IMG/VR virus record: IMGVR_UViG_3300023174_005338
Span: 1-64,000 of that record
Length of the DNA: 64,000 nt
Source of the DNA: a virus
Reading direction: 5' to 3' (one strand)
Shown here: in pieces, positions 53,818 to 60,810 of the stretch
Numbering within the stretch: the stretch's first letter is position 1
Layout of the letters: each line of letters starts with the position of its first letter
Position numbers and translations under genes: made by a program
Notes under the pieces: model-generated
Databases searched by the model: none
Told to the model about the DNA's origin: nothing
Seen by the model: the letters and a program-made list of their open reading frames with translations, nothing else

Positions 53818-53823
53818 TAAATA
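53818..53823 (+). promoter_or_regulatory. Late-type promoter element ATAAATA
   Basis: GATAAATA 36 nt before the GTG start of the membrane gene at 53860, which has an AAGGAGC site. Confidence 0.58.
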
Positions 53824-53859: not shown

Positions 53860-54138
53860 GTGGGTGAATTTTTCAAGCTAGTCGCAGAACTAGGATTTCC
53901 AATAGCGGCAGCAATCGCAGCCGGATACTTTGTATTTCTCACATTGAAGTTTATTCTTGCTGGTGTAACCAGCAGTGTAAAAGGCATGGCCGGCATCATC
54001 GGCGCCTTGGACAAGCGTGTGGCCACCATGAATCATGATGTTATGCGCATTGACACAAAAGTTTCGCATGCGCTGGGTCTACAACCTGACTTGGATCGCA
54101 TAGCTCGAGCTGAACAAAGTGACGCCAGGAGAGACTAA
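53860..54138 (+). CDS. Small membrane protein, paralogue of the 54761 product
   Basis: 92 residues from a GTG start. An N-terminal V-A-E-L-G-F-P-I-A-A-A-I-A-A-G-Y hydrophobic helix extends to about 36, followed by a helix D-x-R-V-x-x-M-x-x-D-V-M-R-I-D-x-K-V. The 54761 protein matches it from G-F-P-I-V-A-A to the D-L-I-R-L-N-Q-K-V helix. Holin-like size and topology, but unproven. Confidence 0.68.
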   Translation: MGEFFKLVAELGFPIAAAIAAGYFVFLTLKFILAGVTSSVKGMAGIIGALDKRVATMNHDVMRIDTKVSHALGLQPDLDRIARAEQSDARRD

Positions 54139-54583: not shown

Positions 54584-54759
54584 AAGTAACCTACGCATTC
54601 ATTGGTTTTATCCTGGGCGGATCAGCCTTGATCGTCAGCCTGTATGTTTGGCTGACCCTAGATGAAGCATTGGAAAATGGCCGGGACTGGATCAAGCTCA
54701 ATCAAGAGTTAAGACAAAAAATTGAAAGCATGGAACGATCAACACCAGGAAAGAGATAA
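54574..54759 (+). CDS. Small membrane protein (61 aa)
   Basis: One N-terminal transmembrane helix (5-28) followed by a coiled coil (L-N-Q-E-L-R-Q-K-I-E-S-M). Overlaps the previous gene by 10 nt. Possibly spanin- or holin-related, but not shown. Confidence 0.62.
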   Translation: MPLEVTYAFIGFILGGSALIVSLYVWLTLDEALENGRDWIKLNQELRQKIESMERSTPGKR

Positions 54760-54760
54760 C

Positions 54761-55039
54761 ATGGATATTGTAACCTTAATCAACAAATACGGATTTCCCA
54801 TAGTGGCCGCTGGCGGCATGGGCTACTTGATTTTCTACGTGTGGAAATGGGCTACCACTGAAATCAAACCTGTGCTCAGTGAAGCCAACACCACCTTGAT
54901 TGCCCTGATAGATCGTATCCGCATGCTGGACAACGACCTGATCCGTCTCAATCAAAAGGTCAATGTGACCCTGCACCTGCGTGGCCGTAGCATCGAGCAT
55001 GAACGCCTGGCTCAAGACGAAATCATCAACAAGTCGTAA
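54761..55039 (+). CDS. Small membrane protein, paralogue of the 53860 product
   Basis: 92 residues with the hydrophobic helix Y-G-F-P-I-V-A-A-G-G-M-G-Y-L-I-F near 10-28 and the conserved D-N-D-L-I-R-L-N-Q-K-V near 57-67. T4-like cyanophages encode close relatives of unknown role. The start is set at ATG 54761, one base after the upstream stop. Confidence 0.68.
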   Translation: MDIVTLINKYGFPIVAAGGMGYLIFYVWKWATTEIKPVLSEANTTLIALIDRIRMLDNDLIRLNQKVNVTLHLRGRSIEHERLAQDEIINKS

Positions 55040-55070
55040 AACCATCACTTAATAGCAGTATATTTCTAGT

Positions 55071-55090: not shown

Positions 55091-55531
55091 ATGAAAAAAA
55101 TAATAATAAGTGTTCTGGCCAGCGTCGCTACATCCACGGTCAGCGCACAACTGGTACATCAGTTTAACTCGCCATCCTTTTCAGGATCGGGCTACAGCAG
55201 CCATGTCTTGACCATCGAGCAACTGGAAGCCACACGCCGTAAAGCCATAGCTGATGCACAAAAAGCCGCACAGGAAAAGGCCGAACGCGATGCCAAAAAT
55301 ACCAACTTGGCCAAGTTCTTGGTCAACGTGGAAAGTCGTATCTACGCACAACTTTCAAAACAGTTGGCAGATGCCATGTTTGCCGAAGGCGGTGCCAACT
55401 CTGGCAGTTTTGATTTCCAAGGCACCAACATCAGTTATGTGAAAACTGGCACAGATGTGACCTTGACCATCATTGAGGCCAACGGAAACAGGACCGAAAT
55501 CACTGTGCCCTTGTCGAGTTTTAGTTTCTGA
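55091..55531 (+). CDS. csgF: CsgF-like curli assembly factor
   Basis: 146 residues. The signal peptide ends near residue 19 (S-T-V-S-A). The mature N-terminus Q-L-V-H-Q-F-N-S-P-S-F-S-G-S-G matches the CsgF start (F-x-F-x-N-P-x-F-G-G) that inserts in the CsgG pore. A helical linker and a C-terminal beta domain with T-L-T-I-I-E-A-N-G-N-R-T-E-I-T-V follow. It would anchor nucleated curli at the surface. Its stop overlaps the csgG ATG. Confidence 0.82.
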   Translation: MKKIIISVLASVATSTVSAQLVHQFNSPSFSGSGYSSHVLTIEQLEATRRKAIADAQKAAQEKAERDAKNTNLAKFLVNVESRIYAQLSKQLADAMFAEGGANSGSFDFQGTNISYVKTGTDVTLTIIEANGNRTEITVPLSSFSF

Positions 55532-56592
55532 TGCGTAGACTACTCCTAATCCTTCTTGTTGCTGTGTTGCCTGGCTGTGCTTACATACACATGGAAGTGG
55601 CACAGGAAGAGCCTGTGAAAGTCACGCCCAAACAAAATCTCATGGATCAGTTGCCGGTGTTGGATGGACCGCCCATGACCGTGGCTGTGTACGGATTCAG
55701 AGATCTCACTGGACAGAACAAACCCAATGACAGACTGGCCTTGTTCTCAAAGGCTGTGACACAAGGTGCTGAAGTGTTCTTGATCAAGAGCCTGCAAGAT
55801 TCCAAGAACTGGTTCCGTGTGGTAGAACGTGTGGGCCTGGACAACTTGATCAAAGAACGACAGCTGATCCGCAATCAGCGTGAAGTGTATGAAGGCAAGG
55901 AAGCCAAACCACTCAAGCCTTTGACTGTGGCTGGTATCTTGTTGGAAGGTGGTATTATTGGCTATGATTCAAACATCAGGTCAGGCGGTAATGGTGCCAG
56001 ATTCCTGGGCATAGGTGGTAGCCAGCAGTATCGTGTGGACGAAGTTACTGTAAGTCTTAGATTGATCTCAATCAGTTCAGGTGAGGTCCTGATGACCAAT
56101 GCTGTGACCAAGACCATATACTCAACAGCACACAATGTGGGCGTGTTGAGATTTGTGGATGCTGGAACCAAAGCCCTGGAGTTGGAGAATGGCCAAGCTC
56201 TGAACGAGCCCACTACCTATGCTGTGCGTGTGGCCATTGAACAGGCAGTGTATGAACTGATCACAGAAGGCCAGAAAAAAGGCCTATGGAGTTACAAGCG
56301 TGCTGAGGAGAAACAAAATGATGTCAAGCCTGCTGCAACAAATGCGCCGCCTGCAACAACAAGCGGCACAGAGACAAAAACAGAAACCGCAAAAACCGCC
56401 GCAGTCACAGTAATGCGGCTGCGCGAAGCATCATACATTTATCGCGATCCAGATGAACGCAGTCAACGCACCTGGATGCTGAAGGAAAACACAGATTTGA
56501 CTGTGACACCAGGCCAGAACGGCTGGGTTGCAGTGCAAGACTCAGCCGGTCGTCGGGGCTGGGTCAAAAGCGACAGGTTAATTCAGCCATGA
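55531..56592 (+). CDS. csgG: CsgG-like outer-membrane curli secretion pore with SH3 extension
   Basis: 353 residues. The lipobox is L-P-G-C (C16). The CsgG body (about 40-255) has V-A-V-Y-G-F-R-D-L-T-G-Q, V-V-E-R-V-G-L-D-N-L-I-K-E-R, G-I-I-G-Y-D-S-N and G-x-R-x-x-G-I-G blocks. CsgG is normally about 280 residues; here an Ala/Thr linker and a bacterial SH3-type domain (about 290-350, ending G-W-V-K-S-D-R-L) are added, which may bind peptidoglycan. It would form the nonameric secretion pore. Confidence 0.92.
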   Translation: MRRLLLILLVAVLPGCAYIHMEVAQEEPVKVTPKQNLMDQLPVLDGPPMTVAVYGFRDLTGQNKPNDRLALFSKAVTQGAEVFLIKSLQDSKNWFRVVERVGLDNLIKERQLIRNQREVYEGKEAKPLKPLTVAGILLEGGIIGYDSNIRSGGNGARFLGIGGSQQYRVDEVTVSLRLISISSGEVLMTNAVTKTIYSTAHNVGVLRFVDAGTKALELENGQALNEPTTYAVRVAIEQAVYELITEGQKKGLWSYKRAEEKQNDVKPAATNAPPATTSGTETKTETAKTAAVTVMRLREASYIYRDPDERSQRTWMLKENTDLTVTPGQNGWVAVQDSAGRRGWVKSDRLIQP

Positions 56593-56698: not shown

Positions 56699-57325
56699 AT
56701 GGAAAAGAGAACGACAGGCATTGGCGGATTGTCGAGAAAATTATCCGCAATTCTGATGACAGCTGCGATGTGGTCATTGGGTGCTCAGGCTAACGAAGTT
56801 TATATTGAACAGGTAGGTAGCGGTTCGACCATAAACATCACGCAACAGGGCACAGACAATCGTATCGGTGACAGCACCACTCCGGCCTACATAGGATCGG
56901 GATCAAACACAGTGACCATAGATCAGATTGGTTCGACCAACACTCTGGACATGGTGGTCAACGGTGCCGGCACAGATGTGATAGTTACAACCACCGGTGA
57001 CAACAACACTCAAACTATCAACTGTGGAACCACAACATCAGCTGGCTGTAGCGGCAGTTATATCAAACAACAAGTCACTGGAGATTCGAACACTGTGACT
57101 CAGAATCTGGGGTCGGGTGCCAATCATACCAGTGAAATCAATGTGACCGGTGATAGTAACACAGTGACTCACACCAGCACAGCCACAGGTACCACTTCGG
57201 CCAATATTACTGTGACGGGCAATACCAACACAGTGGGCGTTACTCAATCAGGAATGTTGAACAAGAGTGTCACAGTTACCAGCACTGGCAATAGCAATAA
57301 CATTAGCATTACTCAGTCTGACTAG
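56699..57325 (+). CDS. Curlin-repeat (CsgA/CsgB-like) amyloid subunit
   Basis: 208 residues. A signal peptide-like start (hydrophobic 16-31, ending A-Q-A) precedes repeated curlin-type strands: S-G-S-N-T-V-T-I-D-Q-I-G-S-T-N-T, G-D-S-N-T-V-T-Q-N-L-G-S-G, G-D-S-N-T-V-T-H, G-N-T-N-T-V-G-V-T-Q-S-G, G-N-S-N-N-I-S-I-T-Q-S. The spaced N and Q in N-x-V-x-I-x-Q are the amyloid ladder signature. A single C-x9-C pair lies in the middle. Probably the secreted fibre subunit for the adjacent CsgG pore. Confidence 0.82.
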   Translation: MEKRTTGIGGLSRKLSAILMTAAMWSLGAQANEVYIEQVGSGSTINITQQGTDNRIGDSTTPAYIGSGSNTVTIDQIGSTNTLDMVVNGAGTDVIVTTTGDNNTQTINCGTTTSAGCSGSYIKQQVTGDSNTVTQNLGSGANHTSEINVTGDSNTVTHTSTATGTTSANITVTGNTNTVGVTQSGMLNKSVTVTSTGNSNNISITQSD

Positions 57326-58346
57326 TTGGGCCTCAGTGGGTCGCGTGGTTGAACAGACCGGCCCCACTGAAATAGTGCGCAACAAAAAGAGTCTGAGCAG
57401 TAGTGTGAATACTCCTGTGGAGATGCTGGACACCATTGTCACAGCTCGAGCCAAGGCCAAGCTGGAGTTTGTGGACAAGACCACGGTCAACATCACTGAA
57501 CAAAGCAAGATACTCATAGACGATTTCGTGTATGATCCCAAAGCCGGATCAGGCAAGCTGGCCATGAAGATGGTACAAGGCACTGCCAGATATGCGTCAG
57601 GTCAGATAGCCAAGAACTCACCACAGAATGTAAACATAACCACACCCACTGCTGCTGTGGCCGTGCGTGGCACAGACTTTTCCATGACCGTGGATGAACT
57701 GGGTCGTAGCCTTATCATGTTGTTGCCCAGTTGCGATGCTAAAAGTTGTGTGACTGGATCAATCAGTGTCAGCAACGATGCTGGTCTAGTCATTTTAGAT
57801 GTGGCCTATCAAGTCACGGTGGTGGCCAGCTTGTCAGCACCGCCCACAGCACCCACGGTGATACAGATTGATGCCAACAACATCAACAACATGTTGATCG
57901 TGGCACCCCCACCAGCAGTGCGTGAAGCCCTACAACATATACAACAAACAGCCTTGGACATTAATTTTTTAAACAAGGATCTGCTGAAGTTTGATGAACT
58001 GGATGTGAACTATCTTGAAAAGTTCAAAAGATTGGATGTGAACTTTTTGGATTTGGATTTCTTGGTCAATTTGTTGGATCTCAGCAACAAGCAGTTGAGT
58101 GCCAGCCTAGATGCCATGAGTCGTGAAGCCAGCCTGTTACCGGCCTATGATCCTAACTCTGGACTAAGGTATTTTTTCAACGAAGATGAAAGCAAGGTCA
58201 CTGTGAGACTAAACACAGGGCACATGGCCGAAGTCACTGTGGGCGTAGAACATGATGCTGTGGTGACTATAAATCAAGCAGGATGGGCAGTTACACAACA
58301 GATCAACCGTGGCGGAACCAGTATAATTAATATTATACAACGATAA
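57267..58346 (+). CDS. FecR-domain exported protein with LD-N-F-L repeats
   Basis: 359 residues from GTG 57267. The first 59 nt overlap the curlin gene in another frame and encode its signal peptide (A-L-A-I-A-I-T-L-A-L-L-S-L). The FecR domain (about 25-150) has T-T-V-N-I-T-E-Q-S-K-I and T-P-T-A-A-V-A-V-R-G-T-D-F. Residues about 230-275 hold Leu/Asp/Asn repeats of the form L-D-x-N-F/Y-L. FecR proteins often precede CHASE2 cyclases in bacteria, as here, and may pass a periplasmic signal. Confidence 0.85.
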   Translation: MSQLPALAIAITLALLSLTSWASVGRVVEQTGPTEIVRNKKSLSSSVNTPVEMLDTIVTARAKAKLEFVDKTTVNITEQSKILIDDFVYDPKAGSGKLAMKMVQGTARYASGQIAKNSPQNVNITTPTAAVAVRGTDFSMTVDELGRSLIMLLPSCDAKSCVTGSISVSNDAGLVILDVAYQVTVVASLSAPPTAPTVIQIDANNINNMLIVAPPPAVREALQHIQQTALDINFLNKDLLKFDELDVNYLEKFKRLDVNFLDLDFLVNLLDLSNKQLSASLDAMSREASLLPAYDPNSGLRYFFNEDESKVTVRLNTGHMAEVTVGVEHDAVVTINQAGWAVTQQINRGGTSIINIIQR

Positions 58347-58356
58347 GGAGATAATA

Positions 58357-58521
58357 ATGGAAGGAACCACAATCAAGACTCTGGCTGAATATATTGCCAA
58401 ATTGAATCGTGACAATGCTGAATTCTTGAAAGAATACGAAAACGATCAATTTGATACCAATGGCGTTGAACAAGATCACATAGAAACATTCTGGCCACCC
58501 AATGAGCACCCCCGCACCTAA
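58357..58521 (+). CDS. Small acidic protein (54 aa)
   Basis: The ATG is preceded by AAGGAG (58345-58350). It is a helical, acidic peptide ending F-W-P-P-N-E-H-P-R-T. Unknown function. Lies between the FecR-domain gene and the cyclase gene. Confidence 0.66.
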   Translation: MEGTTIKTLAEYIAKLNRDNAEFLKEYENDQFDTNGVEQDHIETFWPPNEHPRT

Positions 58522-58708: not shown

Positions 58709-58776
58709 GTCGATATAAAAACTATAAGGAATCGACCCAGCTACATATTCAAAAGCCCCCGCGAGGGGCTTTTTTT
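58709..58776 (+). ncRNA. Candidate small late RNA
   Basis: A transcript started by the late element at 58699 would begin near 58710 and end at the terminator, about 67 nt. It would open with a GTCGAT/ATCGAC stem (58709-58714 with 58731-58736) whose 16-nt loop exposes TAAGGA, a Shine-Dalgarno-like sequence. No start codon follows. It may be a regulatory RNA or only a leader remnant. Confidence 0.42.
58754..58776 (+). terminator. Strong rho-independent terminator before the cyclase gene
   Basis: AGCCCC / GGGGCT stem with flanking A/T extension, CGCGA loop and a T-run. Confidence 0.92.
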
Positions 58777-58784
58777 ATCTAAGT

Positions 58785-58790
58785 TAAATA
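58785..58790 (+). promoter_or_regulatory. Late-type promoter element TTAAATA of the cyclase gene
   Basis: Four nt separate the motif from ATG 58795, so the mRNA would be leaderless. No Shine-Dalgarno sequence is present. Confidence 0.62.
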
Positions 58791-58794
58791 TAAC

Positions 58795-60810
58795 ATGCTG
58801 AAAAAAATCCTAACTAGCCCCTGGACTGCTCTAATAACATTGGCAGTTATAGTAGCAATACGCATAGCGGATCCTGCATTTGTAGAAAGTGTTCGCTTGC
58901 GTTATTTTGATACCTTGGTGACCAGCAAGCCCGCAGAAGTCACAGGTGTTCATGTTGTAAATATTGATGAAAAGGCTTTAGAACGATATGGTCAGTTTCC
59001 CTTCGCCAGAAATGTATATGCTGGCATCATCCAAGATCTTTATCGCCGCAACGCTGGTCTTGTTGTTTTTAATATTCTTACTCCTGATCGCGATCGCATG
59101 GGTCGCGATGCGGCGTATGTGGCGGCGTTGCAAAAACATGCTACGGTTCTTCCAAGCATAGGCAGCACAGCGACTCGTAACCAACCTAGGAATCCCGGAA
59201 GTGCGGTGATCGGTCCCCTGGATACTAACAATTTTGTGACCTATCCTGGAATCATTGCCAACATACCTGCTGTGGAACGTGCGGCCATAGGCGTAGGTAT
59301 CACTAACACCTTGCCCGAGATAGATGGTGTGGTACGTAGAATGCCCATGGTAGTGGCTGTTGATGGTAAGTTATATCCCAGTCTGGCCATGGAAGTCATG
59401 CGTGTGGCCGCAGGTGACTCGACTTTCCAAGTCAAAGTAAATGAACAGGGCGTGGAAAAAATGCGTATTCCACAGTTTGGCCCAGTGAGTACAGATAGCC
59501 TCAGCAGGATCTGGATTGACTGGAGCCTGACTCCAGAACGTCACGGCTTAACCGACTTGCCCCAGGACTTTGATGGCGAGATAGTTATTGTGGGAGTCAG
59601 TGCCGCAGGCCTGTCCAATCCTGTGGCCACCAGCCTGGGTGAGATGTTGCCACAAGACTTGCAAGCCGCTGTGATATCAACAGTGATAGCCAACAAGATC
59701 AGACCAGCTATTACTCGTCCTGACTGGGCAGATGGTGCAGAGATAATCACCTTGGTCGTGCTTGCGGTGACATTGATATTTTTAGGGAGATGGACCTATG
59801 TTGGTATTGCTGGCAGTGTTGTTGTCATTGGTATTTGTGTTTGGGTTCCTGGTGCTTTGTACTCGAGCCATGCTTGGCTCACTGACGTCACTTTGGTTGT
59901 TGGGGGTCTTGTTGCTGTGCTTCTGCATGCTTATGGAGTACGGTTTGTATCAGAGTATCTTGCTAAACAACAAATAAAGAAACAGTTTGGCACCTACTTG
60001 AGTCCGGCCATGGTCGAGAAACTTCAGAAGAATCCAGAACTGCTGAAGTTGGGCGGTGAAAGCAGAGAGTTGAGTATCATGTTCACTGATGTGCGTGGCT
60101 TTACTACCATCAGCGAACACTACGGTGCCGACGTTCAAGGACTGACCAAGATCATGAACAGATATATGACAGCCATGACCGCCAAAATCATAGAGAACGA
60201 AGGTACCTTGGACAAGTACATAGGTGATGCACAGATGGCATTTTGGAATGCACCCTTGGATGACGCTGATCATGCTGTCAATGCTGTGCGTACTGCTTTA
60301 CAAATGATGGAGAGTTTGGATGAGTTCAATCGTGAAATCAGTGCAGAAGGCATTCCGCCTTTTGGCATGGGCCTTGGCATCAATACTGGTACCGTGGTCG
60401 TTGGTAATATGGGCAGCGATCAGCGTTTTGATTACACCTGCCTTGGTGACAGCGTTAATCTGGCGAGCCGACTCGAAGGCCAGTCAAAACCTTATGGCGT
60501 TCGCATCATACTGGGACCGCGTACTAGTGAGCTTGTCAGAGATTCCTACCCAGTTGCGGAACTAGACTGCATAGCAGTAAAAGGCAAGACCGAAGGCGTC
60601 CGCATATATACACTGGCAGAAGAAACACAGTTGCACAAAGATTTTATCACCTTGTATTACGCTGGCGAATGGAAACAAGCACAGGCCTTGATTCCAGGAT
60701 GCATCAAAGCCTGCCCAGAACTGGAGGCATATTATGGGGCCATGGATGAACGACTTGCGGCAGGTAAGCCAGATGACTGGATGGGAACCTATAAGGCTAC
60801 ATCTAAATGA
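58795..60810 (+). CDS. CHASE2-domain adenylate cyclase (class III)
   Basis: 671 residues. An N-terminal membrane helix (9-25) and an extracytoplasmic CHASE2 sensor (about 30-315, with V-N-I-D-E-K-A-L) are followed by three membrane helices (about 320-395) and a class III cyclase domain. Metal ligands are D432 (F-T-D-V-R-G-F-T-T) and D478 (G-D-A-Q-M-A-F-W). K474 and T548 suit adenine recognition, and N555 and R559 are the transition-state pair. It looks fully active, making cAMP. Bacterial-looking gene paired with the FecR gene upstream. Confidence 0.93.
   Translation: MLKKILTSPWTALITLAVIVAIRIADPAFVESVRLRYFDTLVTSKPAEVTGVHVVNIDEKALERYGQFPFARNVYAGIIQDLYRRNAGLVVFNILTPDRDRMGRDAAYVAALQKHATVLPSIGSTATRNQPRNPGSAVIGPLDTNNFVTYPGIIANIPAVERAAIGVGITNTLPEIDGVVRRMPMVVAVDGKLYPSLAMEVMRVAAGDSTFQVKVNEQGVEKMRIPQFGPVSTDSLSRIWIDWSLTPERHGLTDLPQDFDGEIVIVGVSAAGLSNPVATSLGEMLPQDLQAAVISTVIANKIRPAITRPDWADGAEIITLVVLAVTLIFLGRWTYVGIAGSVVVIGICVWVPGALYSSHAWLTDVTLVVGGLVAVLLHAYGVRFVSEYLAKQQIKKQFGTYLSPAMVEKLQKNPELLKLGGESRELSIMFTDVRGFTTISEHYGADVQGLTKIMNRYMTAMTAKIIENEGTLDKYIGDAQMAFWNAPLDDADHAVNAVRTALQMMESLDEFNREISAEGIPPFGMGLGINTGTVVVGNMGSDQRFDYTCLGDSVNLASRLEGQSKPYGVRIILGPRTSELVRDSYPVAELDCIAVKGKTEGVRIYTLAEETQLHKDFITLYYAGEWKQAQALIPGCIKACPELEAYYGAMDERLAAGKPDDWMGTYKATSK

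Follow-up and report, generated by a model that had tools for sequence, protein, structure and literature searches.

A CHASE2 class III adenylate cyclase gene ends a curli (type VIII secretion) module in a T4-type jumbo phage

The stretch of DNA analysed here (the window) opens a 337,119-bp IMG/VR virus record, of which it covers positions 1 to 64,000, and carries, on the plus strand, a curli (type VIII secretion) module, a gene set known from phages for the production and export of curli-like surface fibres. Two genes for small membrane proteins of the phrog_18771 family, 92 and 105 aa long, mutually related and up to 98% conserved, lie at positions 53860 to 54138 (small membrane protein 1, with a late-promoter core at 53818) and 54722 to 55039 (small membrane protein 2, which probably starts at the later in-frame ATG of MDIVTLINKYGFP). 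Searched against Pfam, neither gave a match to a kinase domain, even at an E value of 1. They are followed by csgF (55091 to 55531; Pfam CsgF, 3e-15), which has a late-promoter core at 55070, csgG, encoding the outer-membrane pore with a C-terminal SH3 domain (55531 to 56592; Pfam CsgG, 9e-55), a gene for a curlin-repeat protein resembling the CsgA/B fibre subunits (56699 to 57325; Pfam Curlin_rpt, 3e-9), and a gene for a FecR-domain protein with a signal sequence (57267 to 58346; Pfam FecR, 1.6e-12). The curlin gene, too, is preceded by a late-promoter core. An alignment and a structural model showed that, in the FecR protein, a helical linker connects the signal sequence and FecR domain to short strands that form a ladder at the C terminus; the curlin-like sequence of these strands is conserved in the family, and the protein may act as a minor subunit of the fibre or as an anchor. 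An intrinsic terminator (AAAAGCCCCCGCGAGGGGCTTTTTTT; 58751 to 58780, plus strand) then separates the csg genes from the gene for a 671-aa CHASE2 class III adenylate cyclase with an ATG start (58795 to 60810, plus strand), the last member of the module. A 54-aa open reading frame between fecR and the terminator (58357 to 58521) is about 55% conserved in two relatives, L002 and L008. The initial annotation had recognized the cyclase correctly but had missed its curli context, i.e., csgF, csgG, the curlin gene, and fecR.

That the gene is carried by a phage, as originally claimed, follows from the virus record itself, which encodes a T4-type capsid protein gp23 (1e-97) and portal protein gp20 (5e-106). 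The capsid protein is 68 to 71% identical to those of the jumbo phages Phosso (Sinorhizobium), 2.275.O (Vibrio), and PA5oct (Pseudomonas). Contamination of the contig with host DNA was rejected on two grounds, the phage genes present on this record and the occurrence of relatives in phage isolates.

The cyclase has the standard CHASE2 order of an N-terminal transmembrane helix, a periplasmic sensor, three transmembrane helices, and a cytosolic output domain. Hydropathy placed the helices at residues 4 to 25, 311 to 339, 342 to 360, and 362 to 380, leaving a periplasmic CHASE2 region at about 26 to 310 and a cytosolic cyclase domain at about 420 to 610, followed by a helical tail ending in ATSK. 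The sensor was indeed intact, as first proposed, with a Pfam CHASE2 match (1.5e-35) at residues 15 to 326 that covered nearly the whole profile (positions 2 to 254 of 257), and Guanylate_cyc was matched at residues 424 to 607 (2.1e-21). The protein matched phrog_35576 of PHROG along its full length (3e-254), and the NCBIfam search returned no name for it. In an AlphaFold2 model (mean pLDDT of 89), the catalytic domain could be superposed with Foldseek on the structures of CyaC (1wc1) and CyaB (3r5g) with target-normalised TM scores of 0.82 to 0.86, and the top viral structural match, over the full length, was a protein of an uncultured phage.

An alignment with CyaC (1wc1), CyaB (3r5g), and Cya2 identified the metal-binding aspartates D432 and D478, the adenine pair K474/T548, and the transition-state residues N555 and R559, to which we presumptively assign the roles generally known for class III cyclases. 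The catalytic set named in the initial annotation is thus complete. Among 77 full-length phage relatives, D432, K474, D478, and R559 were invariant, and T548 and N555 were kept in 74. The three exceptions (L003, L004, and L045), like the cyclase of Methylophilales phage Melnitz (L177), have a K-D pair in place of K-T and serine in place of asparagine, so activity or specificity may vary within the phage family. In two of them, L003 and L004, the K-D-type cyclase domain is joined to a CHASE2 domain close to that of the window, an apparent domain swap between phages. Comparison with the 87% identical L002 cyclase by the Nei-Gojobori method gave a dN/dS of 0.12 for the whole gene and 0.10 for the cyclase domain, and other close pairs gave about 0.04 to 0.13; at a ratio near 0.1, the gene is under purifying selection. 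A chance or pseudogene reading was rejected on the basis of the invariant active site and this ratio, and a guanylate or pyrimidine cyclase is disfavoured by K474/T548. Judged by its sequence, the enzyme is very likely active, presumably as a homodimer, with cAMP made from ATP as the predicted product.

The predicted late promoter reported 4 nt before the ATG is well supported by its T4-type core. The exact TATAAATA was absent at 58785 even with one mismatch allowed, and the core TAAATA (within TTAAATA; 58785 to 58790, plus strand), the end of which lies 4 nt from the cyclase ATG, was tested in its place. No Shine-Dalgarno sequence precedes the ATG, and no sigma-70 promoter was listed before the gene, the counts of such sites being close to the shuffle mean. 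In the window phage, TAAATA lies 3 to 9 nt before 25 of 346 starts (0.59 expected), only one of which has a Shine-Dalgarno sequence, and a second class of 27 starts has the motif 16 to 30 nt upstream (1.26 expected), 20 of them with a Shine-Dalgarno sequence; since the gene starts were called mechanically, single cases may be wrong. Both classes recur in a 343-kb relative (G254; 23 near-start and 32 farther sites). The near-start arrangement was also found for 11 genes of Pelagibacter phage HTVC008M, ten of the sites being exactly 5 nt away, and for three genes of Melnitz, all at 5 nt; T4 itself has it in only two genes, both with a Shine-Dalgarno sequence. Further backing comes from the related cyclase genes, 19 of 76 of which have TAAATA 3 to 9 nt upstream, none with a Shine-Dalgarno sequence and with flanks that are otherwise unlike. 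Transcription from T4 late promoters, which are recognized by a gp55-type sigma factor, starts about 5 to 6 nt past the element, so mRNAs of the near-start class are predicted to begin at or beside the start codon. The cyclase would accordingly be expressed late in infection, from an mRNA predicted to be leaderless. We found no published description of this geometry in the literature, which was covered in part.

Genes of the near-start class include those for the portal protein, homing endonucleases, radical SAM proteins, and PhoH. The presence of endonuclease genes suggests that a late promoter abutting the start fits mobile, self-contained cassettes. In this phage, individual homing or HNH endonuclease genes with such a promoter lie at L093:8962, L095:440, L095:9539, and L094:10106.

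We then determined how constantly the cyclase accompanies the curli genes. IMG/VR contains at least 591 relatives of the cyclase, and linkage was counted at the 39 cyclase loci that span at least 15 kb. The small-membrane-protein family was present in all 39, and CsgF, CsgG, curlin, and FecR were each present in 38. Anchoring the count in reverse, on 27 small-membrane-protein loci of 12 kb or more, recovered the cyclase in 22 and csgF/csgG in 26, with the small membrane protein in exactly two copies at 26. The cyclase was opposite in strand to csgG in 8 of 60 loci, and the persistence of the linkage despite such reordering speaks for a functional link rather than passive co-transcription. This curli module is widespread among phages, and its conserved cyclase suggests that it is sensed and signalled beyond mere secretion.

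A cellular counterpart was found by a genome scan in Hyphomonas sp. TMED17 (L179), where csgF, csgG, a curlin gene, fecR, and the cyclase gene lie amid ordinary cellular genes on a 705-kb contig. This operon shares five genes and their order with the phage module, with a cyclase 41 to 42% identical, but it is cellular, lacks both small membrane proteins, and has overlapping fecR and cyclase reading frames with no phage-type promoter between them. In the tree, its cyclase falls just outside nearly all phage sequences, on a branch flagged as long. Bacterial type VIII secretion operons have been described as lacking the cyclase and FecR (PMC9599517), a statement to which the Hyphomonas operon is a counter-example. 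The other Hyphomonas-family genomes with CHASE2 had no curli-FecR-cyclase operon and no csg genes; in two of them, FecR lies beside a CHASE2 cyclase. FecR adjoining a CHASE2 sensor recurs in cellular genomes, and in a Burkholderia biofilm operon FecR lies beside a CHASE2 protein that is a histidine kinase (PMC5192318); this recurrent adjacency makes FecR a likely CHASE2 partner. Five further contigs in bacterial metagenome-assembled genomes (L178, L180, L184, L187, and L192), the genomes being assigned to Rhodobacteraceae, Flavobacteriaceae, Pelagibacter, and Pirellulales, bear the module together with small proteins of the phage type and have the look of phage contigs that were binned with bacteria.

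The reading we favour, with moderate confidence, is that a catalytically competent inner-membrane CHASE2 cyclase serves as the signalling member of the phage curli module by sensing FecR or curlin. The CsgG/CsgF pores, the curlin subunits, and the secreted FecR-curlin protein would be made late in infection, the periplasmic CHASE2 domain would read the state of FecR or curlin, and this reading would set cytosolic cAMP synthesis by the homodimeric enzyme in the inner membrane. FecR or curlin is put forward as the CHASE2 input on the evidence of adjacency. With a terminator between it and the csg genes and a promoter of its own, the cyclase need not be co-regulated with them. Its predicted product, cAMP, offers a simple biochemical means of testing the curli module. 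A fuller version, in which a viral outside-in line runs from FecR or curlin through CHASE2 and cAMP to some receptor that is not CRP, in hosts possibly devoid of cAMP signalling, with a small-protein pair peculiar to phages and a cyclase gene forming an autonomous cassette with a leaderless promoter, strikes us as improbable in its entirety, at about one chance in five.

Somewhat less probable still is the view of the initial annotation that cAMP gives the phage a direct handle on host CRP, late cAMP reprogramming CRP/Clr-type regulons independently of curli. The intact active site with its K/T pair and the late promoter before the gene agree with it, as does the frequency of cNMP-binding proteins in bacteria (found in 10 of 14 control genomes), but the tight linkage of cyclase and curli genes does not, and late expression would leave little time to reprogram the host. 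A phage-encoded CRP as the target was also sought, and no cNMP-binding domain was found across the 337-kb record. In the Pelagibacteraceae, the host family of HTVC008M, a relative that carries the same gene, a cNMP-binding domain occurred in 9 of 147 genomes, the two CRP-size proteins among them were FNR-like with an N-terminal cysteine cluster, and no true CRP was present in the 147 genomes sampled, some of which may be incomplete. Action through CRP is unsupported by these results, and the apparent lack of CRP in this family makes what reads the cAMP a concrete question.

A role in lysis timing, in which the small-membrane-protein pair and the CsgG/CsgF pore would act in lysis and the cyclase would time it by reporting the state of the envelope or periplasm, seems distinctly unlikely. 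It extends the proposal of the Melnitz authors that CsgGF acts as a pinholin-like pore (PMC9004378), and it gains from the late promoters in the module, from the absence of the small-protein pair from the chromosomal Hyphomonas operon, and from a weak match of small membrane protein 2 to the holin family phrog_4898 (8e-4). This match, however, spans 19 residues only, and curlin and FecR, needless for a bare lysis pore, are kept in nearly all loci.

We give very little credence to counter-defence or other signalling, in which the cyclase would make another cyclic nucleotide or flood Pycsar-like sensors; its domain does match the PADLOC PycC models (best, 2.6e-27), but these share the class III fold in general, 74 of 77 relatives have the purine-type K/T pair, and no Pycsar-type effector was found among the neighbours examined. 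We know of no Pycsar counterpart for the CHASE2 and transmembrane domains or the curli context. Equally improbable is a non-functional passenger acquired along with the curli genes, since, even though the literature searched held no activity measurement of any phage member, dN/dS is near 0.1, the catalytic residues are invariant across highly diverged phages, and the gene keeps its own promoter in new gene orders. In sum, residues, selection, the structural model, and the promoter all back the original assignment of an apparently active, late-expressed class III adenylate cyclase, and our preferred reading places it as the sensor and signalling arm of the curli module.

Among characterized enzymes, CyaC of Spirulina (1wc1) and CyaB of Pseudomonas aeruginosa (3r5g) share the class III fold and the catalytic residues with the window cyclase; they carry other sensor domains and, to our knowledge, are not linked to curli. 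A cluster of type VIII secretion, FecR, and adenylate cyclase genes, together with a "histidine kinase," was reported in 2022 in pelagiphages of the Podoviridae and Myoviridae, with a proposed alphaproteobacterial origin (PMC9599517), and csgF and csgG have been described in pelagimyophages (PMC7029224) and in Melnitz (PMC9004378). The pelagiphage cluster shares with the window csgF, csgG, csgA/B, fecR, the cyclase, and one or two genes before them. It differs in being carried by pelagiphages, whereas the window belongs to a 337-kb T4-type jumbo phage in which the cyclase has its own terminator and late promoter, and in the "histidine kinase" named where the window has membrane proteins of 92 and 105 aa before csgF. 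The counterparts of these proteins in HTVC008M and Melnitz are each shorter than 120 aa, and the kinase label may refer to these small membrane open reading frames. The cyclases of Melnitz (QZI94833.1; aligned over its full length) and HTVC008M (AGE60353.1; aligned over 90%) are 36 to 37% identical to that of the window, with the same architecture and module order, but in both phages the cyclase directly follows a second curlin gene in one operon, and the Melnitz enzyme has a K-D pair and no asparagine, whereas the window enzyme has K-T with asparagine. The type VIII secretion-FecR-cyclase cluster of pelagiphages (PMC9599517) and the annotated gene in HTVC008M and Melnitz are therefore already known; new here are the jumbo T4-type carrier, the autonomous late promoter predicted to be leaderless, and the chromosomal alphaproteobacterial operon that includes the cyclase.
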